Positions 17,664 to 21,404 of a stretch of 50,008 bases of DNA are shown here, one piece after another (the first letter of the stretch is position 1; every line of letters begins with the position of its first letter). A model generated the notes under the pieces. The model was not told the DNA's origin. It made no database searches and worked only from the letters and a program-made list of their open reading frames with translations. A program made the position numbers and the translations under genes. Source of the DNA: Thermoflexales bacterium (lineage in GTDB: Bacteria > Chloroflexota > Anaerolineae > J036 > Brachytrichaceae); NCBI GenBank assembly GCA_025056965.1, contig JANWVF010000128.1, positions 1 through 50,008 of the forward strand, given 5' to 3'.

Positions 17664-18860
17664 TCACCCCCTGCGAGGCGGAAAGCGCGAAAGCACCGTG
17701 GCCGAGTCCGGCATCAAGGCGCGGCTGCCCGGCGGCGCGAACGGTTTGAGCGGCTCGGGCATGCGCTCCGGCAGCGCGACGATGTAGATCGTGCTGCCCT
17801 CGTCGGCGCCCGCCGATCTTTCGACCAGCGCCAGCCCCAACAGATAGCCTTCTCCGTCCTGCGCGCAAGAAGTGACCACGCCGATCACCCGGCCGCGCTT
17901 GTCGAGCACTGGGTCACCCAGCTTGCTCGGCCGCACGCCTTTCTCATTCATGCGGAAGCGCACCATCGTTGACGAGTTGCGCGCGGCCTTCTCCATATAC
18001 GCCGCCTTGCCGATGAATTCGGACGCTTTGCCGACCTTCACGAAGTTGTCGAAGCCGATGTGATACGGCGCCAAGTTGAGCGGCCCGCCTAACTCGTGGC
18101 CGTAGAGCGGCAGGCCGGCCTCGGTGCGCAGGCTATCGCGCGCAGCCAGGCCGCAGGGCTTCAGCCCGTGGGCGCGCCCGGCATCCAACAATGTTTGCCA
18201 CAGCGCGACCGACGCATCAGGATGTGCGAAGATCTCATAGGCGATGCGCTCGCCGGTGTATCCGGTGCGCGAGATGAAAGCGTCACAACCGGCGATTTGA
18301 GCGCGCATGACGCCGGTATAGGGAAGCTCGGCGAGCATCGCGCCTTGGGCAGCGGGCAGGAGACGCTGCAGGATCGCCAGCGATCCGGGACCCTGTAGGG
18401 CGAGGTCAACCCGCCGATCTTCCCCGCAGGCCGGGTTGCGCAGATCGCGCAGGGCGCAGCGAAAGCCGCCGATCTGTGCGCGCAGCCACCCTTGATCCTT
18501 GTCGTCGTTGGCGGCGTTGACCACGACCATGTAGCGCTCCGGCTCGATGCGGTAGATCATGATGTCGTCCACCACATCACCGCGCTCATCGAGCATGTAG
18601 CTGTAGTGCGAGCGGCCAACGGCCAGCTTGCTCACGTCGTTTGTGCTCACCCGGTCGAGAAAGGCGCAGGCGTCTGGGCCGCGCACTTCCAGCACACCCA
18701 TGTGGCTGACGTCGAACAAGCCGGCGGCGGCCCGCACGGCCAGATGCTCCTCGCGCGCCGAGGTGTACCACAATGGCATCTCCCATCCGCCGAAGGGCGC
18801 CATGCGCGCACTGAGCCGCTTGTGCACTTCAAACAGGGCGGTGCGTTTGAGATCGGCCAT
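17664..18860 (-). CDS. gcvT: Glycine cleavage system T-protein (aminomethyltransferase)
   Basis: A 398-residue T-protein. It takes the aminomethyl group held by lipoyl-H-protein, releases ammonia and passes the carbon to tetrahydrofolate as 5,10-methylene-THF. Landmarks are PFGGWEMPLWY near the start, LFDVSHMGVLEVRGPDA, FLDRVSTNDV, GDVVDDIMIYR (containing the catalytic Asp), ISRTGYTGE, LRTEAGLPLYGHEL, and the C-terminal barrel with GxVTSCAQD-like VVTSCAQDGEG. The length is a little above the usual 360-370, with a proline-rich tail. It starts 14 bases after glyA and is clearly in its operon. Genes for the P, H and L proteins are not in the window. The tail converges on the GH5 gene with a gap of 26 bases. 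Confidence 0.92.
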   Translation of the reverse strand: MADLKRTALFEVHKRLSARMAPFGGWEMPLWYTSAREEHLAVRAAAGLFDVSHMGVLEVRGPDACAFLDRVSTNDVSKLAVGRSHYSYMLDERGDVVDDIMIYRIEPERYMVVVNAANDDKDQGWLRAQIGGFRCALRDLRNPACGEDRRVDLALQGPGSLAILQRLLPAAQGAMLAELPYTGVMRAQIAGCDAFISRTGYTGERIAYEIFAHPDASVALWQTLLDAGRAHGLKPCGLAARDSLRTEAGLPLYGHELGGPLNLAPYHIGFDNFVKVGKASEFIGKAAYMEKAARNSSTMVRFRMNEKGVRPSKLGDPVLDKRGRVIGVVTSCAQDGEGYLLGLALVERSAGADEGSTIYIVALPERMPEPLKPFAPPGSRALMPDSATVLSRFPPRRG

Positions 18861-18874
18861 CGCGTTGGAGCCGG

Positions 18875-20644
18875 CTACTTCACGACGACCGGCCCGGGGA
18901 TGTGGACGTCTACGTTGGCGTCATCGAAGATCACGTAGCCGTCGGAGAGGGCGCGCAGCCACTGGGTGACGCGCGGCGCCTGGTCTGCCGGGACGTCGAG
19001 CGCGTAGCCGTCATGGATGCGGGTGAGGGTTGCGGCGCACAGGGGCGCGCGATTGCGCCCAAGCACGGTCACCTCGGCGCCGTCGCTCAGGTCGCCGACA
19101 TCCGCGCCGAGGACGACGCCCAAGAATGCCGCCGCTTGCGCGCCACAGACTTCGATTCGGCCGCGATCCGCTGCCCGGTGCCCGTTCGTCGCATACCAGA
19201 CGAAGGGGTAACCCTCACGCGGCAGCTCGAAGTCGCGGCCGGCCTTGGCGACGAGCGCGTTGATGCGCGCGACTCCTTCCATCAGTGCGTCGAAGTCCAC
19301 TCGCGCGCTGTAAGTCACCGATTTCTTCGTCGGGATGGTGTGCGGCTTGGCCGTCTTGAGCACCAAGGCAATCACGTCGGCGATTTCGCGCATGTCGGCT
19401 TCTTTGAGGCCGCGTTGCGTGACCCAGGGCGTGCCAAAACGCAGCGCGCTTGGCCGACCGGCGTCTTTGTCGCCGGGGATGGTGTTGCGGTTGCACACGA
19501 TGCCCATGAGGTCGAGGATGCGCGAAGCCACGTTGCCCATCAGCGGCACGCCGTTGTGCTGGGCGATAGATTTGCAATCCAGCAACACCATGTGCGTGTT
19601 GGTGCCGCCGTGCACCACGCGCAGGCCGTTCGCCTTTAGGCCGTCGCTGAGCGCGACGGCGTTTTTGGCGATCTGCTGTTGCAACGCTTTGAACTGCGGC
19701 GTCTTGGCCAGCTTGAACATGACGGCCATGCCGGCGATCTTGTTCATGTGCGGGCCGCCTTGCATGCCCGGAAAGACCGCCCGGTCTATGCGCTTGGCCA
19801 GCTCTGGGTCGGTGGTGATGATGACCGCGCCGCGCGGCCCCATCATCGTTTTGTGGGTGGTGAACGACGTGACGTGCGCGATGCCGACCGGATTAGGATA
19901 CACGCCAGCGGCGGCCATGCCGGCGGTATGCGCGATGTCGGCCAGCAAATATGCGCCGACCGAGTCGGCAATGGCGCGGAACTTATGAAAGTCGGGCGCC
20001 CAAGGGTATGACGTGTAGCCGGCGATGATCATCTTCGGCTTCTCGCGCTGGGCTAGCTCATAGATTTCCTCGTAGTCCAGTAGCTCGGTTTCTTCGTTCA
20101 CCCGATAGTGCACGATGCGCTGGCGATGGCCGGTGACGTTGACGGGGCTGCCGTGCGAGAGGTGGCCGCCGTGCAGCAAATCCAGCGTCATCACCGTGTC
20201 GCCCGGCTGCACTAGCGCCTCGTATATAGCCGTATTCGCCACGGCGCCGCTGAGCGCCTGCACGTTGACGAAAATCTGCTCCGGCGACATGCCCGGTGGG
20301 CAGAAGACCTCCGCGGCGCGCCGTTGCGCTAGCGCCTCGATGAGGTTGCAATACTCGACGCCTTTGTAGTAGCGCCGGTCGCCGTTGCGGCGATAGAAGG
20401 CCAGCTGCGATGCGTAGTCCAGAATCTGCTCCTCGGCCAGGCCGTGCAAATCGGCATGGGGATAGCCTTCGGCGTAGATGTTCTGGAAGACCGAGCCCTC
20501 GGCCTCGCGCACTGCGGCCGGCACATAGGACTCGCTGGCGATCATGATGAGCTTATCGAGCTGGCGCGCGTGTTCGTGCCGGATTAGTTCGGCGACGTCG
20601 GGATCAACCTCGGCCAGCGTGCCACGAACTAGAAAGTCGTCCAT
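18875..20644 (-). CDS. glyA: Serine hydroxymethyltransferase with GcvT-like C-terminal extension
   Basis: A 589-residue protein, about 150-170 residues longer than ordinary GlyA. Residues 1-440 form the PLP enzyme that swaps serine and THF for glycine and methylene-THF: IASESYVPAAVREAEGS, the SGAVANTAIYEAL region, LADIAHTAGM, and the PLP lysine Lys265 in TTHKTMMGPRGAV. From about residue 480 a second domain begins. RIEVCGAQAAAFLGVVLGAD and GYALDVPADQAPRVTQWLR resemble the N-terminal part of GcvT (compare VRGPDACAFLDRVSTND in the next gene), but shorter and without its catalytic Asp motif. AGGAG at 20655-20659 supports the ATG at 20644 over an upstream frame extension that runs into the terminator. 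The gene is led by a ZTP riboswitch and followed by gcvT. Confidence 0.9.
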   Translation of the reverse strand: MDDFLVRGTLAEVDPDVAELIRHEHARQLDKLIMIASESYVPAAVREAEGSVFQNIYAEGYPHADLHGLAEEQILDYASQLAFYRRNGDRRYYKGVEYCNLIEALAQRRAAEVFCPPGMSPEQIFVNVQALSGAVANTAIYEALVQPGDTVMTLDLLHGGHLSHGSPVNVTGHRQRIVHYRVNEETELLDYEEIYELAQREKPKMIIAGYTSYPWAPDFHKFRAIADSVGAYLLADIAHTAGMAAAGVYPNPVGIAHVTSFTTHKTMMGPRGAVIITTDPELAKRIDRAVFPGMQGGPHMNKIAGMAVMFKLAKTPQFKALQQQIAKNAVALSDGLKANGLRVVHGGTNTHMVLLDCKSIAQHNGVPLMGNVASRILDLMGIVCNRNTIPGDKDAGRPSALRFGTPWVTQRGLKEADMREIADVIALVLKTAKPHTIPTKKSVTYSARVDFDALMEGVARINALVAKAGRDFELPREGYPFVWYATNGHRAADRGRIEVCGAQAAAFLGVVLGADVGDLSDGAEVTVLGRNRAPLCAATLTRIHDGYALDVPADQAPRVTQWLRALSDGYVIFDDANVDVHIPGPVVVK

Positions 20645-20722
20645 CCCGTCGTTTCTCCTCATGGATGTACTGGCTTTTCGGTCGCTGCGGCGCGCTCGTC
20701 GCACCACGCAGGGCAGCCCGCC

Positions 20723-20762
20723 AAAATAAAGAGGCAATCAGGCAGCTCGCCTCGATTGCCTC
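20723..20762 (-). terminator. Attenuator terminator in the glyA leader
   Basis: On the minus strand GAGGCAATC (20754-20762) and GATTGCCTC (20731-20739) form a perfect 9-base stem, with an inner AGGC/GCCT pair and a small loop. A U-rich tract (TTTATTTT, 20723-20730) follows. It lies only 2 bases after the ZTP aptamer and about 80 bases before the glyA start, so it is the expression platform of the riboswitch. Confidence 0.85.
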
Positions 20763-20763
20763 C

Positions 20764-20840
20764 TGCCCAGACGATCGGCTTGGCATGCGTGGCGCTGCGC
20801 TTCCATGTGGTCCATTCCACTTTCATCGTCAGTTGGCGCA
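20764..20840 (-). promoter_or_regulatory. ZTP (pfl) riboswitch aptamer
   Basis: Read on the minus strand the leader holds ACTGACGATG, GTGGAATGGACCACATG and CCGATCGTCTGGGCA in order, the conserved parts of the pfl/ZTP motif. GACGAT (20825-20830) pairs with ATCGTC (20770-20775), and GTGG pairs with CCAC in the next hairpin. ZTP riboswitches sense the folate-stress alarmone ZTP/ZMP and commonly turn on glyA, purH and folD type genes. The match to the family is by memory of the consensus, but the agreement is very close. Ligand binding should prevent the terminator that follows. Confidence 0.88.
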
Positions 20841-20857
20841 GCGACTTAACTAACGCG

Positions 20858-20866
20858 ATTCTAGCA
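20858..20866 (-). promoter_or_regulatory. Extended -10 promoter of the glyA leader
   Basis: On the minus strand TGCTAGAAT is an extended -10 element. It ends about 18 bases before the aptamer, so the transcript would begin near 20850 and contain the whole riboswitch. No good -35 box is visible, as expected for an extended -10 promoter. Confidence 0.6.
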
Positions 20867-20981: not shown

Positions 20982-21404
20982 ATGATTAAGCACATCTTAC
21001 TGGCGACGGATGGTTCGGCAGCCGCCGAACGCGCCGCCGACATGGCAGCTTCGCTTGCCATGCGCTACGACGCCAAGCTCACCGTGGTCCACGCTTATCA
21101 TCCCATTCCGATCTTTCTGGGTGAGCCGAATTACAGCCAAGCTGTGGAGCGCGCGCTGGAAAGCGGCACTAAGTTGGTGCAGGGCGTGGCTAATCGCCTA
21201 CGCGAGCTGGGCGTAAAAGAGGTTATCGCTGAGCTGGTCGAAGGGGCGGCTACCGATGTGATCCTGGCAATGGTTGAGACGCGCAATCCCGACTTGGTCG
21301 TAGTGGGTTCGCGCGGGTTGGGCACGTGGCAGGGCGCGTTCCTGGGCAGCGTGAGCATGTCCGTGACGCAGCGCGCGCCTTGTCCGGTGCTCGTCGTGAA
21401 GTGA
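20982..21404 (+). CDS. Universal stress protein, UspA family
   Basis: A 140-residue single-domain Usp protein. It starts MIKHILLATDGSAAAERA, the first strand with the nucleotide-contacting Asp, and ends with GSRGLGTWQGAFLGSVSMSV followed by CPVLVVK. The G-X2-G-X9-G-S motif is the ATP-binding form of the family. Such proteins are usually small dimers made under starvation or stress, and the partner is seldom known. The gene is divergent from the glyA leader, with about 115 bases between the two transcription starts. A GAGGT about 11 bases before the ATG may serve as ribosome binding site. Confidence 0.88.
   Translation: MIKHILLATDGSAAAERAADMAASLAMRYDAKLTVVHAYHPIPIFLGEPNYSQAVERALESGTKLVQGVANRLRELGVKEVIAELVEGAATDVILAMVETRNPDLVVVGSRGLGTWQGAFLGSVSMSVTQRAPCPVLVVK

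Follow-up and report, generated by a model that had tools for sequence, protein, structure and literature searches.

According to the part of PMC2864571 available to us, glyA is among the five genes most often found behind pfl RNAs. In the accessible text of PMC10085676 and PMC7337938, the ZTP switches of Clostridium beijerinckii (pfl), Fusobacterium ulcerans and Thermosinus carboxydivorans have a terminator and an aptamer that share the bases of P3 and the pseudoknot, and ZTP switches with terminators follow an ON logic. A 2026 covariation study of whole riboswitches models ZTP as a rearrangement of the aptamer by the expression platform, and the accessible portion of that study makes no mention of a non-overlapping class of ZTP platform (PMC13273304).

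Here, we analysed 50,008 nt of DNA from a Thermoflexales bacterium (this whole stretch is called the window), in which a ZTP element lies on the minus strand before glyA and gcvT. With the glyA-associated members of RF01750 it shares a full aptamer scoring above the gathering threshold, the pseudoknot, the Z-box, a position upstream of glyA and an intrinsic terminator; it differs from them in a pseudoknot pair that is changed on both sides, a short P3 and the presence of gcvT behind glyA. As in the three species named above, a U-tract terminator follows closely behind the aptamer and an ON switch is presumed. In those strand-displacement switches the terminator shares P3 and pseudoknot bases, whereas in the window its stem begins 1 nt after P3. 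Taken alone, the riboswitch is an ordinary representative of a known class, and its target gene is a published one. Its setting is unusual, because in many relatives glyA and gcvT form one fused gene before which no switch was found.

The leader upstream of glyA

An extended -10 motif, a ZTP aptamer, a terminator hairpin and a U tract follow one another on the minus strand from 20866 to 20723, and 78 nt separate the end of the U tract (20723) from the ATG of glyA (20644). A preliminary description, made from the letters alone, had given this same order and had placed the end of the element about 80 bases before glyA. The aptamer (20758..20847, minus strand) consists of P1, P2, the pseudoknot GACGAU/AUCGUC and P3. 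A cmscan against all Rfam families returned RF01750 at 51.5 bits (gathering threshold 39, E = 1.4e-5) over the full model length (1-86), the sole Rfam match at gathering level within the 50-kb window; the match at 20847-20758 is also the only ZTP match in the whole genome (E = 2.1e-7). The covariance search, which the preliminary description had named as one test that could overturn its ZTP assignment, thus came out in favour of it. CUGGGC, the conserved ligand-site motif in the loop and 3′ strand of P3 (20765..20770, minus strand; placed by the Rfam alignment), is invariant across 8 leaders of the genus, and in these leaders the helices of the P1-J-P2 and P3 elements, joined by an H-type pseudoknot, are paired in 97.9-100% of cells. 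The location is that of the family, upstream of a gene of purine or formyl-THF metabolism (glyA by PF00464 and NF000586). P3 has only 3 Watson-Crick pairs in the window. Compared with the Rfam consensus, both sides of the pseudoknot are altered (GGCG/CGCC to GACG/CGUC), and its columns are invariant across the 8 leaders except for one unpaired cell, so that it is the difference from the Rfam consensus that speaks for covariation here. Judged by its sequence, the window carries a genuine ZTP riboswitch.

The terminator (20723..20763, minus strand) is a hairpin at 20763-20730 with a U tract to 20723, and it starts 1 nt after P3. The stem has 14 pairs with one bulge and a predicted energy of -22.2 kcal/mol, which together with the U tract bears out the intrinsic attenuator proposed earlier; the hairpin of 9 bases given there exists, and those 9 bases are merely the lower part of the longer stem. 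A mechanical scan for terminator patterns did not list this hairpin, probably because of the bulge. The extended -10 TGCTAGAAT (20858..20866, minus strand) is a motif common to all 8 intact leaders. A sigma-70 pattern scan returned no promoter with a -35 and no consensus promoter for the leader, and an extended -10 without a -35 is modest evidence of a promoter. A probable ribosome-binding site of glyA, GAGGAG, was seen at 20655..20660 (minus strand). The whole leader folded with z = -2.54 relative to shuffles, 3 of 200 of which were equally good. On the other strand, 115 nt from the riboswitch promoter and divergent from it, lies a gene that looks like one for a universal-stress protein (20982-21404, plus strand).

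ZTP matches were found in 9 of 41 genomes searched (the source genome and 40 relatives), namely 8 of the 9 genomes of the genus and one of another family. In every one of the 8 genus genomes with an aptamer, promoter, aptamer and terminator succeed one another in this order at almost identical spacing. The same element thus stands before glyA in related genomes, as the preliminary description had proposed to check; adjacency is shown in 7 of the 8 and inferred in G004, because there one contig ends with the leader and another begins with glyA. Across the 7 genomes other than G004, mean pairwise identity was 0.89 for the promoter, 0.89 for the aptamer, 0.87 for the terminator and 0.89 for the first 240 nt of glyA; in the flanks it was 0.55 (100 nt upstream) and 0.58 (from the terminator to the ATG). 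Over the 8 leaders 99.3% of 297 cells form standard pairs, and none of 500 shuffles was as high on four of five pairing measures; the fifth, the number of further pair types, was not above the shuffles (376 of 500). Two-sided pair changes are few, three cells in all (one in P1 and two in the terminator, each in one sequence), and one slid control (-3) likewise shows two such changes.

Placement of the terminator behind P3

For a survey of terminators 59 loci were given, 3 of them without a recognisable Z-box; 56 were scored, and 35 had a hairpin of -8 kcal/mol or lower. The terminator abuts the aptamer (0-3 nt after CUGGGC) in 28 of these 35 Chloroflexota loci, which are not independent since all 8 of the genus are among them. 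It overlaps the aptamer in 7 of the 35: 5 of them, all of family f66, resemble the published type, with a stem that starts 12 nt within the aptamer, and the overlaps at L073 and L100 are probably scoring artefacts.

ZTP matches occur in 38 of 396 genomes of the class and in 44 of 400 of the phylum. Among 50 ZTP loci outside the genus, the next gene matches the GlyA of the window by BLAST in 13, at 30-44% identity, which is lower than for the fused type described below; the 1500-base flank covers only part of the frame in 12 of these 13. At many other ZTP loci the next gene begins like PurH, and a 200-aa stretch of L009 is purH by profile. The purH-leader elements of the Anaerolineae families f14 and f38 belong to the same aptamer family as that of the window and, where scored, have an abutting terminator (offset 0-3 nt); they differ in the gene, purH (by profile for L009 only, by N-terminal sequence for the others), and in P3, which mostly has 5 pairs compared with 3 in the window. 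In family f66 (L090, L091, L092, L098, L102, L105 and L111) the gene behind the ZTP element encodes a small protein resembling a membrane protein; for the one at L090, neither Pfam nor NCBIfam gave a match at E<=1e-5. ZTP elements also precede a cobalamin-independent methionine synthase (L097), an adenylate kinase (L101) and a class-V aminotransferase (L103; the best NCBIfam model, aspartate-glyoxylate aminotransferase, was below cut-off).

When the leaders were folded as free RNA, the terminator had a mean pair probability of 0.87-1.00 in all 8, and the aptamer helices and the terminator coexist in the minimum-energy fold of L005. Since aptamer and terminator are compatible in free RNA, their coupling must be kinetic or steric. 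P1 and P3 were not dominant in the free-RNA fold of the window (mean pair probabilities 0.42 and 0.08), and the pair probability of P1 was low in L006 and L007 too.

Two other forms of coupling bear on this arrangement. The classic one, in which the terminator contains P3 and pseudoknot sequence and opens the aptamer by strand displacement, is described for three species in the accessible text of PMC10085676 and PMC7337938 and is present at the 5 loci of family f66; it is very unlikely here, because the stem of the window and of 7 intact relatives uses no P3 or pseudoknot base and, in each of the 8 genus leaders, starts 0-1 nt past CUGGGC. As this published coupling does not fit the sequence of the window, neither the direction of the response nor its size is proven. 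An extra antiterminator would form if the linker UGCC just 5′ of P3 paired with GGCA in the 5′ arm of the terminator, thereby prolonging P3. GCC or GCU is in register in all 8 genus leaders, the extended P3 is predicted at -6.3 to -9.6 kcal/mol, and 31 of 34 leaders had p<=0.3 when the whole linker was shuffled; that signal vanished in 23 de-duplicated leaders with the two P3-proximal bases fixed, where the pairing was no better than in shuffled linkers (Fisher p = 0.51, Stouffer p = 0.18) and the mean mid-p was 0.44, compared with 0.63 in 20 control leaders. The pairing is also absent in G011 (L053). We rejected the P3 extension as an antiterminator and regard this form of coupling as rather unlikely.

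The aptamer, promoter motif and terminator, their spacing and conservation, and the gene order are seen directly in the DNA. We consider it very probable that the ZTP riboswitch is a transcriptional ON switch for a glyA-gcvT operon, its ligand and ON direction being taken by analogy from the ZTP family. Transcription would start a few bases after the extended -10. With 10-formyl-THF plentiful, ZMP and ZTP would be low and P3 and the pseudoknot loose, the terminator 1 nt after P3 would form, and RNA polymerase would stop before glyA. With 10-formyl-THF short, ZMP and ZTP would accumulate and lock the pseudoknot and P3; as there is almost no spacer, the locked P3 would sit at the base of the terminator inside the exit channel of the polymerase, and the terminator could not close. 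Read-through would follow, and GlyA and GcvT would be made from the same message. Exclusion in the exit channel is suggested by the 1-nt spacer, which would put the folded P3 at the terminator base inside RNA polymerase; this coupling, the start site and the co-transcription of gcvT are proposed for this locus only.

Fused and separate glyA and gcvT genes

The glyA gene of the window (18875..20644, minus strand) encodes a serine hydroxymethyltransferase of 589 aa with a C-terminal extension (PF00464, E = 2e-124; NF000586 above cut-off). As described before, it is followed by gcvT (17664..18860, minus strand), which starts 14 nt after glyA, encodes an aminomethyltransferase of 398 aa (PF01571, E = 2e-82; TIGR00528 above cut-off) and is the only gcvT match in its genome. 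GlyA and GcvT share methylene-THF. The extension of GlyA (aa about 485-589; 18878..19192, minus strand) is the remnant of a degenerate GcvT-like domain, as indicated by profile, Pfam and Foldseek.

The window has two genes and no single open frame for both. In 19 of 32 relatives outside the genus, one frame of 951-1248 aa covers glyA and gcvT; 8 of these are among the 16 relatives from the same family, and 11 are among the 16 that come from other families of the class. Among the matches listed, a few further classes of the phylum have such frames as well. The fused protein has the order GlyA, GcvT-like piece, linker, GcvT. Fused Anaerolineae proteins, such as those of Thermanaerothrix daxensis (L210), Longilinea arvoryzae (L219) and Bellilinea caldifistulae (L230), have the same parts in the same order as the window; they are one polypeptide of about 1050-1300 aa with no ZTP match upstream in the searches of fused loci given below, whereas the window has two genes and a ZTP element. 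A literature search of open-licence papers, by title or the start of the abstract, found no description of a GlyA-GcvT fusion.

The middle piece is derived from GcvT. That of G025 (L067) aligns to gcvT residues 31-285 (E about 1e-25), and a profile of 10 middle-piece homologues matches T-proteins in the PDB (best E 3e-10). A GCV_T match at E<=1 was obtained for 9 of 10 middle pieces, and the window's own piece gave E 0.099, below cut-off. A model of the middle piece had a mean pLDDT of 72 (the first 19 residues and residues 40-60 mostly under 50), and its 22 best Foldseek matches were T-proteins and proteins that we take to be their kin (best E 1.0e-3, TM about 0.45). The piece carries the signature LSDGY[VT]xFD. 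Of this piece, about 100 aa survive in the GlyA of the window; the linker has been lost, and gcvT begins at a start of its own.

Scanning named genomes with the middle piece gave 183 relatives, of which the best 80 were kept. In these best 80 of 183, 79 record titles name Chloroflexota or groups that presumably belong to it, and the title of L166 reads uncultured bacterium only. By a fixed rule the same best 80 comprise 61 fused genes, 5 split genes with gcvT next, 5 glyA-middle genes alone, 8 truncated and 1 cut; one of the 5 split genes (L191) is an open-ended frame at the edge of its locus and probably a cut fused gene. Because these 80 were selected for holding the middle piece, they are not a fair sample of the class, for which the 19 of 32 relatives are the fairer measure. 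Fused genes lie at L057, L058, L062 and L067 among other loci, and the split remnant in the window is at 19192-17664.

We infer that the glyA-gcvT pair of the window is the fission product of a fused glyA-(GcvT-like)-gcvT gene. Fission as an artefact of assembly or frameshift was rejected, since the two are separate neighbouring frames in all 8 riboswitch-bearing genomes of the genus and since a separate gcvT start lies in the window 14 nt beyond the stop of glyA.

Origin and role of the switch

A GlyA tree was built for 25 genomes from residues 1-440, which leaves out the middle piece; G009 (best match 30% identical) and G018 and G023 (cut at a contig end) are not in it. The 16 split genes form one clade (100/99), so that the fused and split states need one change, and the presence of ZTP needs 4 changes. 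A ZTP element before this gene, whether intact, diverged or decayed, was found only inside the split-gene clade. In G011 (L053) a diverged element of 31.7 bits, below gathering, stands with a terminator before glyA. G016, the first branch in the split clade, has a ZTP relic (L055:5534-5420, minus strand; 22.1 bits, E 0.1) in which CCGGGC replaces CUGGGC, a change of the Z-box U, and in which no U-tract terminator was seen; in a larger genome search this relic was absent from the listing at E<=5. A confinement of ZTP before glyA to the genus, which a strict-filter search had suggested, is wrong, as the diverged element of G011 and the relic of G016 lie outside it. G007, a genus member placed with G004 on the tree (83/90), has a leader (L048:4341-4243, minus strand) with the same extended -10, a similar terminator and no recognisable aptamer. 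This leader seems to be a riboswitch that lost its sensor, and the gene can evidently do without the switch. Searches with the Rfam and genus models found no ZTP element before glyA in G010, G017, G022, G013 and G021. Rfam at E<=5, which had picked up the element of G011, detected none before the fused gene at 8 fused loci, and no fused locus among 100 searched reached E<0.01 with the genus-derived model.

The promoter pattern extends beyond the switch. The pattern TGNTANNAT precedes the start codon by 47-111 nt in 6 of 10 fused loci (the first block examined); its distance to glyA is 213-259 nt in the intact riboswitch leaders and 110 nt in G007. In G010 and G017 (L049 and L050) the pattern, an extended -10, lies just 12 nt before the glyA ATG, which suggests a leaderless glyA message there. 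The simplest reading is that the switch arrived between glyA and an old promoter when the genes split or later, and was subsequently lost in places; a gain before the split, with loss in the fused lineages, may have occurred instead. On the simplest reading, a fused glyA-(GcvT-like)-gcvT ancestor would have split, and the switch would have entered between the older promoter and glyA in the split lineage.

The relic of G016, the aptamer-less leader of G007 and the five genomes in which no element was found raise the question of whether the window's aptamer is itself decaying and no longer controls the terminator, which would then merely damp glyA-gcvT. This is very unlikely, since in the 7 genomes compared aptamer (0.89) and terminator (0.87) match the start of glyA (0.89) in conservation in the midst of diverging spacers, and since the pair changes preserve the helices. 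A different question is which gene the element serves. GcvT requires the P and H proteins. The genes gcvH and gcvPA are adjacent on contig C69 of the source genome G000 (L120:4752-6485, minus strand), away from gcvT, and a second, weaker GDC-P match on contig C164 is probably gcvPB; the locus in the window does not hold a complete glycine cleavage operon of gcvT with gcvP and gcvH. Co-regulation of the whole glycine cleavage system was rejected, because the P and H genes are located elsewhere and no ZTP match accompanies them. The earlier proposal that the switch would raise methylene-THF from both serine and glycine is thus only partly supported: the glyA-gcvT pair does stand behind the switch, but the partners that GcvT needs do not. 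A role of the element chiefly for gcvT and glycine cleavage, with glycine as the one-carbon source, would suit a gcvT that is the only one in the genome and lies 14 nt behind glyA; it is improbable, given that gcvH, gcvPA and the second GDC-P match carry no ZTP match and that in G011 the diverged element precedes glyA with gcvT on another contig. Since it is glyA that a diverged element (G011) or a remnant (G007) precedes where the two genes are apart, glyA is more likely the primary target of the switch, and its pairing with gcvT is inherited from the gene fusion.

The abutting, non-overlapping terminator is left unexplained by the strand-displacement model, which was built on three species. 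Tentatively, and with more doubt than confidence, we suggest that a second kind of ZTP platform may exist in Chloroflexota, one whose terminator borders directly on P3, shares no strand with it and is gated by physical exclusion in the polymerase exit channel. The clade in which the fusion split may also be the one that acquired the switch, inserted between glyA and a promoter already present, possibly restoring dosage control over the separated enzymes. Across the relatives, the locus presents a series of states, from a promoter with a fused gene, through split genes with a switch, to diverged, decayed and aptamer-less remnants, and this series could show how a riboswitch enters and leaves one interval between a promoter and a gene.
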